Source: a virus
Direction: 5' to 3' (one strand)
DNA: 23,810 bases
IMG/VR virus record: IMGVR_UViG_3300030380_000934
Coordinates: 1 to 23,810 of that record
Position 1 is the first letter of the stretch. Each line of letters begins with the position of its first letter. The notes under the pieces are model-generated. The model had not been told where the DNA came from. It did not search any database and worked only from the letters and a program-made list of their open reading frames with translations. The position numbers and the translations under genes are program-made. Of the stretch, positions 1 through 23,810 are shown one piece after another.

Positions 1-1558
1 TGATGACACTTGGCTTAGCCACCAAATCCCACTCGCTGTTGGTGTCGCTATACTGATTAAAAAAAGCAGAATTAGCTTTGGCGTAATCTTGATTGTTGAA
101 TCCGTCTTGTCCGTCATAAAAATCTACCTCACCTTTGGTTATATCTAATGTATCTGTAATTTTCACTTCAAAATATTCCTTATTAAAACTTACAACTGTC
201 ACTAAATCAAGTTCTTGTAATACTACGTCTGACTCTATTTTGGTAGATGGTAGACTATTACTTTTGTTTTTATTGCTCTTATTTTCGCTGTTAGACGTGC
301 TTTTTTCTTCGCTTTTTTCGTTTTTTACGTCTTTTTTAGTAATAACAGTACTTTTCTTAATAATATTATTTTTTTGCTTTTCTACATTTTCCTCTTGTTT
401 TTCTTCTTTTTCTTCGGCGCCACTATCGTCTGATATGTCGCTTTCTTCATTTTTTCCAACATCTTCATCATTCTCTGCTGGTGTTTCCTCTTGCTGTTCA
501 TTGTTATTCCCCTCTAAATCTTCTTCCATATTTGTTTCTTCTAGTTCGGCTGGAATTTCTTCGTTTCTTAATTCTTCTAAAGTTTCTGGCATTTCAATAT
601 CTATATCAATTTCTGGTAAATCCATATCTGGTATATCTGTTTCCACAGGTACATCAACTCCTGTATCTACAATTATTGGCATTTCATTATTTATACCTAT
701 ATCTGCAATATCAGAGTGCATTTGTTCTGCTCTAATATCAGATATAACAGATATTGATGGTGATAGACTTGCTATTTGCATATCTTGTTGTGGGCCAATA
801 TCTAAAACGCCACTTGATAAAGTATCTACAATACTGTTTTCATCAAGACCACCAATAATAACAACTGGCGCTTCTTCTATAATCGCCAAAGGGCTCTCTA
901 TTTGCGTTATTTGGCTACTTTCTGGTATTTCTACTGGCGTTATATCGTCTAATGTTAAAACTACGCTTAAATCGTCAATTATAGTGCCAAACTGCCCATT
1001 TTTATTTCCTGTATCGGCGCCAAAATAGTTTACTGTTAATGAAGTATTATTTGTTTGAAATATATTGCTTACATCAACAGAATAATTGGTTGTTTTTGTT
1101 CCGTCATTATAATCTGATGTAAAATTATGCGTTAACACTTCTGTAGTAGTTCCGTCTGATAAAGTCATTGTAATATTTACAGGGTCCAAATTATTTTCTG
1201 TACCAAATTGTGTACACCAAGCACTACCACTATTATTACAGCCAATAGATATTAGGCTTCCAGATATAGATATAACTTCTTGGTTTTCTTCAGCAATGGT
1301 TTCTAAAGATATTGATTGTGTTACCGAGCCACCCTCTGCACTGCTAAATCTTACCGATTTTGATATGCCACCAGAATAAGTATTCCCATCATAATCAACA
1401 TTACCATTTAGTTCCCAGCCGTTAGTCTGGTTATCAAATGAGCCATTATTTAGGATATTTGTCGTTTCCGTTGCCCTGACCTTTTGAGGTGCTGTAATTA
1501 CTAACATTGTAATCAGTACCCAGATAATCAGGATAGCGTAATATCTGACCATATTCAT
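1..1558 (-). CDS. Secreted modular protein, C-terminus outside window (partial)
   Basis: The frame is open from ATG 1558 to the window edge (519 codons, no stop), so the protein is at least 519 residues. Residues 1-29 form a signal peptide: positively charged start, a hydrophobic stretch around residues 8-23, and a plausible cleavage after VRA (29). Residues about 34-200 look like a beta-sandwich, possibly carbohydrate-binding: it opens with NILNNGSFDNQTNGW and ends with GTIIDDLSVVL, a layout seen in CBM/DUF642-like folds. Residues about 200-390 are rich in Asp, Glu and Pro, then comes a Lys/Glu-rich stretch to about 430 and a more ordered segment (SFNKEYFEVKITDTLDI, then EVDFYDGQDGFNNQDYAKA). 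The start is chosen because it gives the complete signal peptide; the SD is weak (GGGG about 7 nt upstream) and ATG 1552 is an alternative. The first 113 bp overlap the preceding gene in another frame. From memory, similar proteins end the tail region of marine phages. Role unknown; surface binding or host exit are guesses. Confidence 0.8.
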   Translation of the reverse strand, partial: MNMVRYYAILIIWVLITMLVITAPQKVRATETTNILNNGSFDNQTNGWELNGNVDYDGNTYSGGISKSVRFSSAEGGSVTQSISLETIAEENQEVISISGSLISIGCNNSGSAWCTQFGTENNLDPVNITMTLSDGTTTEVLTHNFTSDYNDGTKTTNYSVDVSNIFQTNNTSLTVNYFGADTGNKNGQFGTIIDDLSVVLTLDDITPVEIPESSQITQIESPLAIIEEAPVVIIGGLDENSIVDTLSSGVLDIGPQQDMQIASLSPSISVISDIRAEQMHSDIADIGINNEMPIIVDTGVDVPVETDIPDMDLPEIDIDIEMPETLEELRNEEIPAELEETNMEEDLEGNNNEQQEETPAENDEDVGKNEESDISDDSGAEEKEEKQEENVEKQKNNIIKKSTVITKKDVKNEKSEEKSTSNSENKSNKNKSNSLPSTKIESDVVLQELDLVTVVSFNKEYFEVKITDTLDITKGEVDFYDGQDGFNNQDYAKANSAFFNQYSDTNSEWDLVAKPSVI

Positions 1559-15409: not shown

Positions 15410-16072
15410 TTAGTGTTTAATTTTATCAATAAGTGCATTTATACTATCAGCAACATCACGTTGCTCTAATAAATCTTGCTCTTGGTAAGACTTATAAAGT
15501 ATGTTTGCAGTTTGTTTCGCAACAGCACTTGACATTACACCAACATCTCGTAAGTGTTCTTCAAGTTCTCTTGGCCCCATATTCGCCAATTTTACTTTTG
15601 TAACTTTGGCTTTTGGATTCATTGGAAACGTAACCATTGATATTTCCATTAAGTCCAAATTGTTGATGGTACGTTTTTTTAGCTTGTCGCTATATCTGTA
15701 ATCCTCTGGCGATAACTTATAGCCTATTGACATACTATCTAAAGCGCCCATTTTCATTAGCTCGTAAACTTCCTTACCTTTCTGTGTACCCATAGCAAGT
15801 CTACCTTTAATCTTCAAACCTCTTTTATCTTCTTCTAATGCGTCAATTACGCCTATCGGCTCATCAGTCTTGTGCTGATAAAGTAATTTAATTTGTTTTG
15901 GTTTTTTATCGTAGATTGATTTAGCAAATGCACCTTGTTTGATTACATCATTTCCTAAATCTTTATTGTTAAATACAGAAGCGTAACCCTCAAAACTGCC
16001 ATCTTCTTCTGTGTCAATACCTTTATAATCACACTCTAAATCAAGAACGTCATTTATAAATTCTTCAGACAT
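15410..16072 (-). CDS. Prohead protease (HK97 family)
   Basis: A 220-residue serine protease that cleaves the capsid delta domain during maturation. Motifs: FEGYASVFNNKDLGNDVIKQ (residues 28-46), GAFAKSI, LLYQHK with the probable catalytic His67, and MGALDSMSIGYKL, where Ser115 is the probable nucleophile. The end has LEEHLRDVGVMSSAVA, usual in this family. Spacing to the capsid gene is 11 bp. It is first in the structural operon after a terminator at 16138-16176, so it probably has its own promoter. The SD is AAGGA about ten bases before the ATG. Confidence 0.95.
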   Translation of the reverse strand: MSEEFINDVLDLECDYKGIDTEEDGSFEGYASVFNNKDLGNDVIKQGAFAKSIYDKKPKQIKLLYQHKTDEPIGVIDALEEDKRGLKIKGRLAMGTQKGKEVYELMKMGALDSMSIGYKLSPEDYRYSDKLKKRTINNLDLMEISMVTFPMNPKAKVTKVKLANMGPRELEEHLRDVGVMSSAVAKQTANILYKSYQEQDLLEQRDVADSINALIDKIKH

Positions 16073-16105: not shown

Positions 16106-16135
16106 ATGATAGCAATACTTATGCATTAATTACAA
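16106..16135 (-). promoter_or_regulatory. Weak sigma70-like promoter before the protease gene
   Basis: On the minus strand TTGTAA at 16135-16130 and TATCAT at 16111-16106 are 18 bp apart, about 34 bp before the protease ATG. The location between a terminator and the first gene of the head operon makes a promoter likely, but the boxes are not strong. Confidence 0.35.
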
Positions 16136-16137
16136 GC

Positions 16138-16176
16138 AAAAAAAAAGGTGCAGAGAATTAGCAAAAACTCCACACC
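16138..16176 (-). terminator. Rho-independent terminator closing the minus-strand cassette genes
   Basis: Minus-strand stem GGTGTGGAG with CTCTGCACC (two G-U pairs), 12-nt loop, followed immediately by nine T bases. It lies 18 bp past the stop of the last cassette gene (16194) and before the protease gene, and its wobble pairs favour minus-strand RNA. This is the best-formed terminator in the window. Confidence 0.83.
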
Positions 16177-16193: not shown

Positions 16194-16439
16194 CTATTTC
16201 TTTCTTTTACGTTTTTCGTACTGAAACTTATGGTTTAAATCCCACGCACATTCTTGAAGTTTGCGAACATCTCCCATATCAATATCAAAACATTCAGAAA
16301 TATTGTTTAATATACCAAATAATGTAGATATTGTCGTATCAATACTTTCTATCTGTTCCTTTGATAATTTTGATACACCTACTGCAAGTTCTTTCTGCTT
16401 TCTATCGTATTCTATTTCCCATTTTTCTTTTTTATTCAT
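16194..16439 (-). CDS. Small cassette protein, function unknown
   Basis: An 81-residue charged protein, mostly helical, opening MNKKEKWEIEYDRKQKELAV and ending in KYE-like basic residues (QYEKRKRKK). The middle (IDTTISTLFGILNNISECF) is amphipathic, suggesting coiled-coil or helix pairing. GGAG lies six bases before the ATG, and its start overlaps the end of the HTH gene by 8 bp. It is the last gene of the cassette's minus arm. I recognise no family. Confidence 0.65.
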   Translation of the reverse strand: MNKKEKWEIEYDRKQKELAVGVSKLSKEQIESIDTTISTLFGILNNISECFDIDMGDVRKLQECAWDLNHKFQYEKRKRKK

Positions 16440-16647
16440 TATATTCTCCTACAAGAGTGTACATTACAAATCTAGGTTGACCTTTCTTTTCTACCCAAAC
16501 ACTTTCTATGTCATAGCCATCTGCTCTTAGGTTGTAAATAATTGAAGATAATCTGGTGGCTCTATACTTAGATATAGCTGTCCAAGTGTCTATATGACCA
16601 TAACTCAATAAATGTTTTTTAATTTCTTGCGATTTATTTTGCTTCAT
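16432..16647 (-). CDS. Small winged-helix/HTH DNA-binding protein
   Basis: A 71-residue protein. The sequence KSQEIKKHLLSYGHIDTWTA and ISKYRATRLSSIIYNLRADGY matches the HTH_39-type helix-turn-helix (I-x-x-H-L-x-x-x-G-x-I-x-x-x-x-A-x-x-x-Y-x-x-x-R-L-x-x-x-I-x-x-L-R-x-x-G). It ends with a wing-like IESVWVEKK and RFVMYTLVGEYNE. The start at 16647 is chosen over the upstream ATG at 16716 because GGAG lies seven bases before it and it overlaps the stop of the previous gene (ATGA). The upstream start would give 23 extra residues inside that gene. It may regulate this cassette through the control region at 17357-17621, but that is inference. Confidence 0.82.
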   Translation of the reverse strand: MKQNKSQEIKKHLLSYGHIDTWTAISKYRATRLSSIIYNLRADGYDIESVWVEKKGQPRFVMYTLVGEYNE

Positions 16648-16961
16648 AATAGTTCTCCAAAAGTTTCTGGTGTGTAATACATATCTCTTTCTATAGGTAA
16701 TCCTAATGGTGGACACTTAATAGCTTTTATTTCATTAATATTGAAATATCCATATTCTCTGGTATCTTTACCAAACATCTGAGCAATACCAAAGCAGATA
16801 CCATCTTCGTCCATAGAATGTACCCACCAAGTCGCTTGACCTGATGGGTTAAAAAATTTAACAACAACTTTGTCGTATTCAATACTGCCATCAGTATCTT
16901 CAAGGCTTTTATTGTTATTTTCTAATAATTTTTTTTCTATTGCTTTAGTCAATAATTTCAT
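16644..16961 (-). CDS. DUF2958 protein
   Basis: A 105-residue protein matching DUF2958: LLTKAIEKKLLENNNKS, DKVVVKFFNPSGQATWWVHS, DGICFGIAQMFGK, then YGYFNINEIKAIKCPPLGLP and IERDMYY, the usual closing motif G-Y-F-x-x-x-E-I-x-x-x-x-x-P-x-G-L-P-I-E-R-D. The family is common on plasmids and in phages; its activity is not known to me. The ATG overlaps the upstream stop by one base, and the stop overlaps the next start, so the four minus-strand cassette genes form one operon. Confidence 0.87.
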   Translation of the reverse strand: MKLLTKAIEKKLLENNNKSLEDTDGSIEYDKVVVKFFNPSGQATWWVHSMDEDGICFGIAQMFGKDTREYGYFNINEIKAIKCPPLGLPIERDMYYTPETFGELL

Positions 16962-17356
16962 TATTTCACCCCCCAGCTTCTATTATGGTTATTTGCAACT
17001 TTTTCGTGTAGATATTCAAACCAATTATCTTTTATTGCTTGAAACATAAATTGAAATGATTCGTCATTCATAAGAGAATATTTTGCAATTTTACTTTTTT
17101 TAGTGTCTGTTCTTGGCTTGTAGATAAAACCTGTATTTTTACTTATAAATGCGTGGGTTTCGTTTCTACTTTCTTTTTCAAATATTGATTTTATTTTATA
17201 GTATTTTGAGCCACTTTCATCTATTTCAAACCTTACTGGTAATCTTTTCCCAGAAGATTTTATATGAGTTTTTTCTACATATTCTACATTTAAATATAAA
17301 GTATAATCTTTTGCTCTTTTAAATATCTTGTTTTGCTCGTCATTTCTTTCTTTCAT
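16961..17356 (-). CDS. Cassette protein of unknown function
   Basis: A 131-residue basic protein, first of the minus-strand operon. The start is MKERNDEQNKIFKRAKDYTL, followed by DESGSKYYKIKSIFEK, AFISKNTGFIYKPRTDTKKS and FQFMFQAIKDNWFEYLHEKV. The GFIYKP segment resembles a motif I have seen in small early proteins of marine phages. GGAG lies six bases before the ATG at 17356. The ORF ends by overlapping the DUF2958 start. No function assigned. Confidence 0.75.
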   Translation of the reverse strand: MKERNDEQNKIFKRAKDYTLYLNVEYVEKTHIKSSGKRLPVRFEIDESGSKYYKIKSIFEKESRNETHAFISKNTGFIYKPRTDTKKSKIAKYSLMNDESFQFMFQAIKDNWFEYLHEKVANNHNRSWGVK

Positions 17357-17402
17357 AATTATCTCCGTTTATTTAATTAAAATATAGATTTATATATAAG
17401 TA

Positions 17403-17420
17403 ATCTATATATATATAGTA
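17403..17420 (-). repeat. Promoter-like repeat, inverted copy
   Basis: Reverse complement of the 18-bp sequence at 17561-17578, facing the minus-strand operon. Both copies end with GAT followed by T/A-A toward their own start codon. Confidence 0.85.
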
Positions 17421-17545
17421 ATTGGTATTTTGGAAAAATAAAGGGCTATTTTGCTATTTCCCCGTAACTTTTTTGGTATTTTTTTGTAAGTTGCTGATTT
17501 TAAAGATAATTTAGTTATATATTCTATATATATATACTGTACTTA

Positions 17546-17562
17546 TATATGGTTGCCATATA
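17546..17562. promoter_or_regulatory. Operator-like dyad over the plus-strand promoter
   Basis: Perfect 7-bp inverted repeat TATATGG-TTG-CCATATA. It overlaps the proposed -35 box (17553-17558), so a protein bound here would block the plus operon. Confidence 0.5.
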
Positions 17563-17578
17563 CTATATATATATAGAT
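17561..17578 (+). repeat. Promoter-like repeat, forward copy
   Basis: Exact 18-bp match to the inverted copy at 17403-17420, oriented toward the plus-strand operon. The proposed -10 box begins at its end. Confidence 0.85.
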
Positions 17579-17621
17579 AAAGTATGTATCTATAAAAAAC
17601 TTAAATTTTAGGAGATTTAAA

Positions 17622-17717
17622 ATGGAAAATATAGCAATAATACTAGGCATATCATTACAGACAGTCGCAGTTATTTATATTTTATATAAAGTAAACCAAG
17701 AAACAAAAACTTATTAG
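17622..17717 (+). CDS. 31-residue membrane protein
   Basis: A very short ORF: MENIAIILGISLQTVAVIYI, then LYKVNQETKTY and TAG. The AGGAG at 17610-17614 is seven bases from the ATG, as strong as for the next two genes. Residues about 3-22 are hydrophobic, enough for one membrane span, and the end is charged. It is the first gene of the plus-strand operon, ten bases before the next ATG. Small phage membrane proteins can act as holins, pinholins or exclusion factors, but nothing selects between these here. Confidence 0.7.
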   Translation: MENIAIILGISLQTVAVIYILYKVNQETKTY

Positions 17718-17727
17718 GAGAAAGAAA

Positions 17728-18144
17728 ATGAATAAATTAACTACACAAGAAAAAACAAAAGCAATATATTTCGTAGCTTTACAAAAGACCAAGAAACTTA
17801 AAATTAAGATTGCTAATCTTGAGTGTAAATATCTTGAAGAAGCAATAGTTGTAATGAATTTAATAAGTGCTTTAAAAGAAGAAACATATAAAAGTTATAA
17901 AGAGGGTGCAGATAGAAAAGAGTATGTCGCAAATGCAAAATATGAACTGTATAACCTTGAGCAAAAAATAAGTAAGTTAAGAACTGAACTTGATGAAAAT
18001 AATAATCTTCTTATGAGGAGCTGTATTGAAAGTGAAGATATAATTAAATATTGTTTAGATGGTGATTGGGAAGCAGTTTATAATGGACACGAGGAGTTTC
18101 AATTTCTTCATAAGGCTATAAGAAAAATAGAGGGTGTATCTTAA
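17728..18144 (+). CDS. Coiled-coil cassette protein, function unknown
   Basis: A 138-residue helical protein with heptad patterns (KLKIKIANLECKYLEEAIVV and KYELYNLEQKISKLRTELDE). The C-terminal part is IIKYCLDGDWEAVYNGHEEF and FLHKAIRKIEGVS. SD AGGAG is located eight bases before the ATG. Second gene of the plus-strand operon. No family recognised; early-type phage proteins of this shape are common and diverse. Confidence 0.72.
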   Translation: MNKLTTQEKTKAIYFVALQKTKKLKIKIANLECKYLEEAIVVMNLISALKEETYKSYKEGADRKEYVANAKYELYNLEQKISKLRTELDENNNLLMRSCIESEDIIKYCLDGDWEAVYNGHEEFQFLHKAIRKIEGVS

Positions 18145-18152
18145 AATTAACA

Positions 18153-18170
18153 GGGAGCAGAAATGCTCCC
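18153..18170 (+). terminator. GAAA-tetraloop stem-loop between plus-strand genes
   Basis: GGGAGCA and TGCTCCC form a perfect 7-bp stem with the GNRA loop GAAA. No T-run follows. The next gene's SD (AGGAG) lies eight bases past it, so it may protect mRNA, pause transcription or affect translation rather than terminate. Confidence 0.6.
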
Positions 18171-18188
18171 ACAAACTAGGAGATAGAA

Positions 18189-18512
18189 ATGGAAAATACA
18201 AAAAAGAAAGAATATGAGGGCGATTATGAGGGTTGGGAAAAAGAATGTTTAGCTGATTTAGATATTCCTAAATTGTGGGAAGATGTTTCGTGGAGTAATG
18301 ATATTGCTCCTTCTTTTCGTACACAAAATGGATTTCAAGTATTTATTATGGAAAAAGACAAAAACAAAAGGGAATTTCATAATGATGTAAGATTTTTTGT
18401 GCAACATTATAATTATTATGGTTATGATTTTGTTTGTCGTAGGTTTGATGATTTTAAAGAAGTTATAAATTATGTAAACCAAAATACAGGTGCATACATC
18501 TTTAAATATTAG
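18189..18512 (+). CDS. Aromatic-rich cassette protein, function unknown
   Basis: A 107-residue protein, acidic at the start (EYEGDYEGWEKECLADLDIP) and rich in Phe and Tyr (RFFVQHYNYYGYDFVCRRFD). SD AGGAG precedes the ATG by seven bases. It is the last gene of the plus-strand operon; its stop lies six bases from the stop of the opposing MuF-like gene, so the two transcripts converge here. No family recognised. Confidence 0.72.
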   Translation: MENTKKKEYEGDYEGWEKECLADLDIPKLWEDVSWSNDIAPSFRTQNGFQVFIMEKDKNKREFHNDVRFFVQHYNYYGYDFVCRRFDDFKEVINYVNQNTGAYIFKY

Positions 18513-18518
18513 TAGTTG

Positions 18519-19295
18519 CTAACTAATAACATCATCTTCTTCATCATAGAATGTTAAGAAGCAACGGCAGTTACAGACGTTCATAGGCCCACCAGCCGTA
18601 TCGCCTGGGCTAGACATAGCTATTGGTATAACACCATTTTTAGTCGGCGTATTTACAATAAACTTTTCATCAATGCCAACTCTTTTTCCGTCCATTCTCT
18701 TATGCCAACTTCTTGCTCTAGTATCTAGCGCATTATTCCATTCTTTCTTAGGATTTTTAAGTTCTAAAGATTTTGCTATTTCTAAATTACCAACATTCAT
18801 AGCGTTATGTGTTTCTGTTCTAGCTATAAGCGTTGCTCTACTACTAGCAAACGCAGAAGAATTTTTTATGTTTTTACTTATTTGTTGTATGGATAAACCA
18901 TCTCTTAAACCCTTTCGGATAGTATTTGCTATTTTTTTTCTTGTTGTTTCCGATATATTGGTTACTTCTTTGGCAGTATAAACGCTTACATAACTCGCAA
19001 CTATTTGTTCAGTTGTTTGCATTTCTTTTCTAAATCTTTGTCTATTAATTCTATTTGCTGTTTGCTCTATTACAAACGTATATTGGTTGGACAGTATAGA
19101 ATATAGCTCGTTTCCATATTCTTCACTAAAGATATTTTCTATGTCAAAACCAGCTAGATATTTTCTACTTGCTTGTATACTAACTTTATTAAATAATTTT
19201 TTAAGCTTGGCATTTAATCTTTTCGTATAGTTTAAATAAAGCCTTAATTGTTCTCTATAATCCCTACGTCTGCTTATTTTAATTTTGTCTGCCAT
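18519..19295 (-). CDS. MuF/SPP1 gp7-like head morphogenesis protein
   Basis: A 258-residue minor head protein. Family signature residues: SRATLIARTETHNAMNVGN (A-R-T-E-T, residues 158-162), then WNNALDTRARSWHKRMDGKR with D191, R195, H198 and D202-G203, and the end SSPGDTAGGPMNVCNCRC with the N-C-R-C motif (242-245). Such proteins sit inside the head and may be ejected with DNA. N-terminal residues 1-120 are helical and charged. The ORF overlaps the HNH gene by 17 bp. It is complete; the end is five residues (DDVIS) beyond the conserved part. Confidence 0.93.
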   Translation of the reverse strand: MADKIKISRRRDYREQLRLYLNYTKRLNAKLKKLFNKVSIQASRKYLAGFDIENIFSEEYGNELYSILSNQYTFVIEQTANRINRQRFRKEMQTTEQIVASYVSVYTAKEVTNISETTRKKIANTIRKGLRDGLSIQQISKNIKNSSAFASSRATLIARTETHNAMNVGNLEIAKSLELKNPKKEWNNALDTRARSWHKRMDGKRVGIDEKFIVNTPTKNGVIPIAMSSPGDTAGGPMNVCNCRCFLTFYDEEDDVIS

Positions 19296-22110: not shown

Positions 22111-23394
22111 TCAACTAATTTTAAATATTGCTGTGCCAGATGATTGCAGAGAAGTTAACGCCCAAACAAGTGCGTCAAGCCTATCAGGCGATTTTATTGT
22201 CTGTGGTGTATATTGCGTCATCTGTTCTTCCAGTTCCTTAAAATATTCTGCGTGATGTACCTTATTCATTTCATACAACGCACTAATTGGCTCTGCTCTT
22301 AACATCTTTCCCCTTGTTGCTCTAACTGAACTGTAAGGCACATTTACATCTTGTACCCTTAACAGTTTTTCAATTAAGTCGCCACCGTTATTTACTTCAC
22401 ATACAATCCTATCAGCTTCAAATTTGTAGTACAACTCAATCGCACGTTTTATCCATACATCAGGGCTAAAAATACCAGAATAATCACCTAAAACATAATA
22501 ATTATTATCAACCCCTCTACCAGCAACTATAATTCCAGTTTCATCAGAAGATTGGTTAGACGTTACAGCTGGGTCAATCGCAACCACAATTCTTTGTAAA
22601 TCTGGAACAATGTCAATTCTGTTTTGCTCTATATTAGCAGAATTAAATAATGCACCCTCAATATCTTCTAGTATTTCTGCGTATAGCTCTTGCCTACCAA
22701 GTCTTGTACCCTCATATCTTTCTTTTAGCATTTTAATTGCAGATGGCGCTAGGTTATCTATGTTATCAAACGTACTACCTTTAATTATTTTTGTGTCTGC
22801 TCTTACAGCTAATTCTCTAATTAGTTCTGTAGGTCTAGGCGTTGTAGTAATTATACATTTTGGCGAATCACCAAGTCGTAATGCCATCATTAAATTATCA
22901 AATGTTTCACGATATCGCCACGAGGCTAATTCATCACACCATATTCTATGGAACTGTACACCTCTTAACCTGTCTGGCTCTATCGCTGGGAAGCCTGTAA
23001 TCCTACTGCCATTATAAAAAGTAATCTCATTTGCTGACTTGTTATAACCAGTTTCATTAAATAATTCTTTATCAAGAATGCCCAGCAGACCAGATTCACC
23101 AGCAAAACAAACTCGTTTTAAATCGCCATATGTAGGCGCTATTACACCACATATAACATTTGGATTTAGTAAACAGTATTGGATAATATCATATGCGCCA
23201 GTAAGAGTTTTTCCCCAACCTCTACCAGCTAAAAATAATTGTATATTGTAATCATCATCATCAATCACAATTTGGTTTTTTCTTGCTTTGTTATACCAAT
23301 CAGTGAGTAGTATTGTCGCTGTCTTTTTCTGAGAGTTTAGCTCTTTGAATGTCTTTGATAAGTTCAGCGAATTTGTCATCTTGATTTGTGCCAT
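22111..23394 (-). CDS. terL: Terminase large subunit
   Basis: A 427-residue packaging motor with both domains. Walker A AGRGWGKT (56-63), Walker B IWCDE (151-155) and motif C TTTPRP (183-188) form the ATPase. The nuclease has VVAIDPAV with D274, CEVNNGG with E333 and SPDRLDALVWAL with D404/D407. Compact length and the GRGWGKT/SPDRLDALVWAL motifs resemble the GTA gp2 terminase group. The start at 23394 is preferred because GGAG lies seven bases before it, although this overlaps the small-subunit gene by 95 bp; ATG 23379 is an alternative. Complete protein. Confidence 0.96.
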   Translation of the reverse strand: MAQIKMTNSLNLSKTFKELNSQKKTATILLTDWYNKARKNQIVIDDDDYNIQLFLAGRGWGKTLTGAYDIIQYCLLNPNVICGVIAPTYGDLKRVCFAGESGLLGILDKELFNETGYNKSANEITFYNGSRITGFPAIEPDRLRGVQFHRIWCDELASWRYRETFDNLMMALRLGDSPKCIITTTPRPTELIRELAVRADTKIIKGSTFDNIDNLAPSAIKMLKERYEGTRLGRQELYAEILEDIEGALFNSANIEQNRIDIVPDLQRIVVAIDPAVTSNQSSDETGIIVAGRGVDNNYYVLGDYSGIFSPDVWIKRAIELYYKFEADRIVCEVNNGGDLIEKLLRVQDVNVPYSSVRATRGKMLRAEPISALYEMNKVHHAEYFKELEEQMTQYTPQTIKSPDRLDALVWALTSLQSSGTAIFKIS

Positions 23395-23683
23395 CTTGTA
23401 TCTCCAATATATCTTTTTCTGTCCAACGTGCTTGTGTCTTAAGCCAGAATATACACGCTGTTACTGCTTCACGTCCTGTACCAGTTGCTATTTTAAAAAG
23501 ATTTTGCGCTATCTGTGCATTTGCTTTCGCTTTACCCTTTGTTAGTTCTTCTTCATAGTATTTATACAATGTAGGTTTTGATATATCTAGTGTGCTACAA
23601 ATTTGTTCGTGTGGAATACCCAAGCCAGATAACTGAGTTACCACTCTTGCTATTTCTTCCGTTTTATTTACTGTTTTTGGCAT
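23300..23683 (-). CDS. terS: Probable terminase small subunit
   Basis: A 127-residue protein with an N-terminal helix-turn-helix (TEEIARVVTQLSGLGIPHEQ, then ICSTLDISKPTLYKYYEEEL, residues 7-47), then LTKGKAKANAQIAQNLFKIA and TACIFWLKTQARW, a layout typical of small terminases that bind the packaging site. The C-terminal tail is charged. It is encoded just upstream of the large subunit with a 95-bp overlap. No clear SD is seen before the ATG. It would recognise DNA at or near its own gene. Confidence 0.85.
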   Translation of the reverse strand: MPKTVNKTEEIARVVTQLSGLGIPHEQICSTLDISKPTLYKYYEEELTKGKAKANAQIAQNLFKIATGTGREAVTACIFWLKTQARWTEKDILEIQDGTNQDDKFAELIKDIQRAKLSEKDSDNTTH

Positions 23684-23810
23684 ATATATCTTTTATAGAG
23701 TAAAAATAAAATTATTTCAACTATTTCTCTATTATGTAACCTACAAAATTAGAGAACTTAAAAAACAACATAGCATTATACTTTTGAAGCATTTTTTTGC
23801 TTATTGGTCT
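23684..23810 (-). promoter_or_regulatory. Upstream region of the packaging operon with dyad
   Basis: 127 bp with no gene. A TATAAT box is present on the minus strand at 23781-23776 without a good -35. Between it and the small-terminase ATG lies a 7-bp inverted repeat, TTCTCTA (23725-23731) with TAGAGAA (23750-23756), 18 bp apart. This may be an operator or a terminase binding site. The window ends here, so more upstream DNA is missing. Confidence 0.4.

Follow-up and report, generated by a model that had tools for sequence, protein, structure and literature searches.

The pid moron of Salmonella phage P22 occupies a variable site, is transcribed opposite to its surroundings and ends in a 3' terminator (PMC3573128). 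Judged from its sequence, the locus described here, part of a virus record that runs to 23,810 bases (the window, meaning the whole stretch of DNA analysed), resembles this moron more closely than any other described case that we found. As with phage morons of the pid kind, small genes occur at a place that is empty or differently filled in relatives, are transcribed against their neighbours and may carry their own regulatory signals and terminator (PMC3573128). Unlike P22 pid, however, two cassettes stand head to head, and a putative promoter-leader module is common to two insertion sites of one genome and to many relatives; moreover, no integrase was found in this phage.

Two further kinds of system are comparable in part. 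Lambdoid divergent immunity and early control regions of the PR/PRM type have two gene sets reading outward from one regulatory region, an arrangement shared by the present locus. The comparable region of this phage lies elsewhere, however (25865–25993 of a second record, G001), beside a gene for a 73-aa Cro-like protein, and no repeated operators of fixed spacing were found at 17357–17621. Emory, Bouvet and Belasco in 1992, and related work, reportedly described 5'-terminal stabilising stem-loops in the ompA and papA leaders of Escherichia coli. The hairpins considered here likewise precede the ribosome site and lie where the transcript is predicted to start, but they belong to phage leaders with AT-rich stems, a predicted start point and a putative effect on stability. 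Stabilisation of mRNA by 5' stem-loops is the subject of references listed in PMC3997798.

We consider it probable (roughly 0.7) that the locus comprises two moron-like cassettes placed head to head at a landing site for optional genes, the + cassette being led by a recurring promoter-leader module. We see in the layout an add-on of a kind already known from phages, not a novel switch for regulation, and a puzzling symmetric repeat would become a recognisable arrangement in which optional genes of a phage come with control sequences that are portable.

Gene Content of the MuF-Protease Interval

The terminase, portal, endolysin, HNH, MuF-like, protease and capsid genes of the window are all on the − strand (the names terminase, portal, protease and capsid rest on the sequences themselves and on homology with the gene order of relatives). 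Between the MuF-like and protease genes lie three + genes (17622–18512) and four − genes (17356 down to 16194), which meet head to head at 17357–17621 (table 1); as the earlier note had described, two divergent sets of genes start from here. The two cassettes have GC contents of 28.3% and 29.5%, a base composition unlike that of the flanking structural genes (32–37%). A terminator-like site closes the − cassette ahead of what is probably the protease gene's own promoter; no terminator acting in the sense of the + cassette was found after that cassette. A similar stem and T-run also precedes the protease gene in many relatives with same-strand cassettes, and TG-containing −10-like sites, read by eye, precede it in relatives with or without a cassette. 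A separate intergenic hairpin within the + cassette (GGGAGCA-GAAA-TGCTCCC, 18153–18170) occurs in 52 loci, often one per cassette, and its variants retain pairing (GGGAGCTA/TAGCTCCC, GGGGGTA/TACCCCC and GGGGCTA/TAGCCCC).

Table 1. Features of the MuF-Protease Interval and Its Borders (Window Coordinates)
Feature	Position	Strand	Basis or remark
MuF-like head gene	18519–19295	−	
107-aa gene, last of + cassette, convergent with MuF	18189–18512	+	
138-aa gene (g138), + cassette	17728–18144	+	Homologues at same site in relatives, on MuF/protease strand; early-site homologue in L037
31-aa ORF (g31), first of + cassette	17622–17717	+	Homologous ORF beside 138-aa gene in L010–L012
P+ module: TA-rich stretch, promoter-like hexamers, leader dyad, AAAAACTTAAA...AGGAG, start codon	17527–17624	+	Profile match
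Leader dyad/hairpin, + arm, TATAGATA-7-TATCTATA	17572–17594	+	Counterpart hairpin in most module copies; z −1.4 alone
18-bp copy, + arm, TACTATATATATATAGAT	17561–17578	+	Exact reverse complement of 17403–17420
Third dyad, TATATGG-TTG-CCATATA	17546–17562		Mostly within preferred P+ spacer
Preferred P+ core, TGTACT-17-TACTAT	17538–17566	+	Placed by alignment to relatives
Element TTAAAATCAGCAACTTACA, like relatives' upstream element (AAATCA...ACTTA)	17485–17503	−	Top window score 15.8 bits, next 8.9; training 16.9–27.4
18-bp copy, − arm, inverted	17403–17420	−	Exact match to 17561–17578 copy
Leader dyad/hairpin, − arm, ATATAGATT-11-AATCTATAT	17382–17410	−	z −1.1 alone
131-aa gene, DUF7717 (PF24835)	16961–17356	−	
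105-aa gene, DUF2958 (PF11171)	16644–16961	−	
71-aa winged-helix protein, HTH_39 (PF14090)	16432–16647	−	E 1.3e-7
81-aa gene, last of − cassette	16194–16439	−	
Terminator-like GGTGTGGAG...CTCTGCACC + T9, closing − cassette	16138–16176	−	Read from sequence; loop exceeds scanning tool's reach
Promoter-like TTGTAA-18-TATCAT, extended −10 type, of protease/capsid genes	16106–16135	−	
Protease gene	15410–16072	−	

About 190 loci were gathered by family searches and by scans that used as queries the terminase, the protease, the 138-aa protein and the DUF2958 protein, whereas a scan with the 131-aa protein returned this phage alone. A near-identity search of the phage collection gave no match, TerL relatives among named phages are all less than 60% identical (best rows ∼45%), and no relative emerged when bacterial genomes were scanned with the capsid protein. 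G001 (L192+L193) is a second record of the same phage, with 32,293 bases and 99.9% identity across the shared stretches; its far end (30892–32082) repeats sequence from window positions 2–1558, at the opposite end, suggesting a circular or permuted genome.

The interval from MuF to protease varies among relatives between a gene-free 111 bp and 3.5 kb, and in three loci (L054, L056 and L060) it is only 111–119 bp and holds no gene, so that the cassettes, as morons do, separate two genes that are direct neighbours in relatives. When ORFs preceded by a ribosome-site-like sequence are counted, the cassettes of one set of relatives are all or mainly on the same strand as the neighbouring genes and those of another set all or mainly on the opposite strand. 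The 138-aa gene shares the strand of MuF and protease in all other phages in which it lies close to both and is opposite only here; the one other opposite-strand case (L037) is at the early site. We suggest that this interval is where optional cassettes of small genes land. Many of the genes are kept in relatives, with neither the mirrored repeat nor the divergent layout, an outcome close to the one that the earlier note had itself named as refuting joint control by a shared operator pair. In four loci (L027, L037, L039 and L053), long ORFs of 193–326 aa lie in or after the MuF end and are followed by a small opposite-strand ORF.

A Recurring Putative Promoter-Leader Module

Many of the relatives' cassettes are headed by one module of ∼130 bp, comprising an upstream element, a sigma-70-like promoter, a leader hairpin and AAAAACTTAAA-AGGAG. 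Same-strand cassettes start after an AT-rich stretch, with the element AAATCA...ACTTA just past the MuF stop followed by TA-rich DNA. The promoter-like core has a −35-like TTTACA or TTGACA, a spacer of 16–17 nt and a −10-like TATACT or TATAAT, after which come the hairpin, AAAAACTTAAA and AGGAG. The + arm is the window's top match to a profile built from the relatives' MuF-downstream regions alone (E 0.0057), and it is matched at E 0.027 by a profile enlarged with early-site copies, in a larger search space. This likeness to a module conserved in relatives argues for the promoter region that the earlier note had placed there, and may give the + cassette the promoter of its own that is typical of a moron; the − arm is weak in this respect.

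The exact hexamers of the putative + promoter are ambiguous because a hexamer matrix gives the core placed by alignment 0.6, against 8.4 for TTTAGT-17-TATACT (17510–17538) and 5.4 for TTGCCA-17-GATAAA (17553–17581); an alternative −10, TATACT at 17559–17564 with a 15-nt spacer, also fits. The orientation of the element at 17485–17503 is similarly ambiguous, since a near copy, GTAACTTGCTGATTTTA, reads in the other direction upstream of the same phage's early-site module, and we therefore claim neither that the + cassette was inserted nor that it was inverted in place.

The module recurs beyond the interval. The enlarged profile matches at least two places in each of four records (G002, G003, G009 and G010), including the MuF-protease and early sites, and the early-site copies come after a gene for a 2OG-Fe(II) oxygenase and a small gene. 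Two further matches occur in this phage, at 25909 and 28924 of G001, one of them in the early divergent region. The distinct copies listed number 43, among them opposite-strand copies within the MuF-protease interval in L082 and L065, and at least four gene families follow the module at the two sites alike. Since one stretch of ∼130 bp stands in front of optional genes at two genome sites and in many relatives, we tentatively propose, as a possibility rather than an expectation, that the module is a recombination anchor by which cassettes swap between sites and phages through homologous exchange, arriving already wired to early control; if so, the window would be a case in which two cassettes ended up head to head through an exchange of this type. 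The module could serve to find accessory cassettes of unassigned function in uncultured phages, and could help to ask how accessory genes move yet stay under phage control.

Mirrored Repeat and Predicted Leader Hairpins

The letters and positions reported earlier for the 18-bp inversion hold, as do those of the third dyad, and the flanking dyads ATATAGATT/AATCTATAT (17382–17390/17402–17410) and TATAGATA/TATCTATA (17572–17579/17587–17594) are perfect. The 14-bp core of the 18-mer, CTATATATATATAG, is its own reverse complement and is found at two places in the window and no others, so that two bases per side decide whether the copies are mirrored or direct. The region 17357–17621 is 19% GC, and a third (TA)6 run lies at 17525–17536.

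The earlier note had considered the exact mirrored copy with matching flanks harder to explain by chance than single dyads and proposed shuffling as a check. An exact separated inverted repeat of at least 18 bp arose in 1 of 1000 dinucleotide-preserving shuffles of the 265-bp region, a count that is not a strict probability because the region was chosen for its repeat. The best mirrored ungapped score, 23, lies above all 300 shuffles (maximum 19); masking the (TA)n runs brings it down to 11, against a mean of 12.0 for unmasked shuffles, the only null used; mirror similarity falls to chance level once the TA runs are masked. The repeat is thus rarer than chance, as claimed, mainly because of its TA runs. 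Taken by themselves, the leader dyads are no rarer than chance, since two dyads with arms of at least 8 were matched in 43 of 500 shuffles, in keeping with the caution originally attached to single dyads. Among the ∼190 loci, the 18-mer and its 14-bp core occur in none from other phages; both are found only in loci of the same phage.

Across 41 distinct copies of the module, the leader folds more stably than shuffles at z < −1.5 in 31 (median −3.0); the two arms of the window are weaker, and neither is individually beyond chance (table 1). The dyad loops of this one phage measure 7 nt in the + arm, 11 nt in the − arm and 6 nt at the early promoter, unlike the equal spacing that a two-sided operator needs at both promoters. 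Such unequal arm spacing fits operator half-sites bound by a single dimer less well than it fits predicted RNA hairpins where the transcript would begin, and it favours the latter. Within the close family the leader hairpin is 94% paired and the one-sided changes are all G–U, with no excess of covariation over shuffles, and a search of Rfam gave nothing over any family threshold. An arm-swap test of the leader arms was set aside as biased, the arms having been chosen by folding. Palindromes in the promoter spacer were considered as operators and rejected, being no more palindromic than chance in relatives. By analogy with known 5' stem-loops, the leader hairpins would be likely to protect or pace the mRNA, and the mirrored 18-mer may be the shared TA-rich start region of both leaders, with the −10 and start point as predicted.

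In the − arm, the core of the 18-mer and a leader dyad occupy positions that match those in the + arm. The profile of the relatives' modules did not find it, and its best −35 scores 4.5 against 7.0–17.6 in training. It resembles the + core as a putative promoter that lacks a clear −35, and the case for a transcript start of its own is weaker.

Possible Control of the Two Arms

These features of the − arm bear on a possible though less probable account, namely that the + arm is the sole promoter, that the likeness of the − arm reflects TA-rich chance and that the − genes, which lie on the MuF/protease strand, are read from a late transcript coming from MuF. The loss of the mirror score on masking, the failure of the profile to find the − arm and its poor −35 would all suit such an arrangement. 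Core and leader dyad nevertheless occur in matching positions, and the − cassette ends in a terminator-like site of its own, like the module-headed cassettes of relatives. On the reading with two moron-like cassettes, the − cassette has a weaker similar core in front and a putative terminator before the protease gene's putative promoter, and the module that recurs in this phage family stands, in one copy, at the head of the + cassette.

The earlier note had instead interpreted the repeats as an operator pair, with one dimeric regulator, perhaps the HTH protein at 16432–16647, binding both mirrored copies and controlling both arms jointly. This is improbable. The rarity of the exact inverted copy, the HTH_39 gene inside the − cassette and the candidate upstream element between the arms speak for it, but the 18-mer is missing from the loci of other phages, dyad arm spacing varies among module copies and the spacer dyads are at chance. 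Nor are the sites conserved with the regulator in relatives: HTH_39 was found in 4 of 12 records (G001, G004, G005 and G007) and not in the module-bearing G002, G003, G008, G009 and G010, although these records may be fragments, leaving the HTH protein unsupported as controller. Far more doubtful still is an invertible promoter, in which the 18-bp repeats would be recombination sites and the intervening 140 bp would flip. Inverted repeats do flank a putatively promoter-bearing segment, but the 18-mer core is palindromic, the segment is oriented alike in the second record of the phage (which is identical across window positions 16300–17727), and no serine or tyrosine recombinase (PF00239, PF00589) was found in G001 or four relatives by searches whose controls were positive, although a host enzyme could act.

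For the two moron-like cassettes, the 73-aa Cro/repressor-like protein, encoded beside the early divergent region and weakly matching phage repressors, is by conservation a better regulator candidate than HTH_39, and may control them. Relatives of it occur in all six other whole records covering its place (G002, G003, G004, G008, G009 and G010) and in seven further loci (L037, L051, L062, L066, L073, L076 and L077). Also in the early region of G001 are genes for a 2OG-Fe(II) oxygenase and for a protein with a DnaB-like helicase domain (early-region genes at 24180–25049 and 28101–28694), and positions 22707–23702 were read by eye as a putative cytosine methylase.
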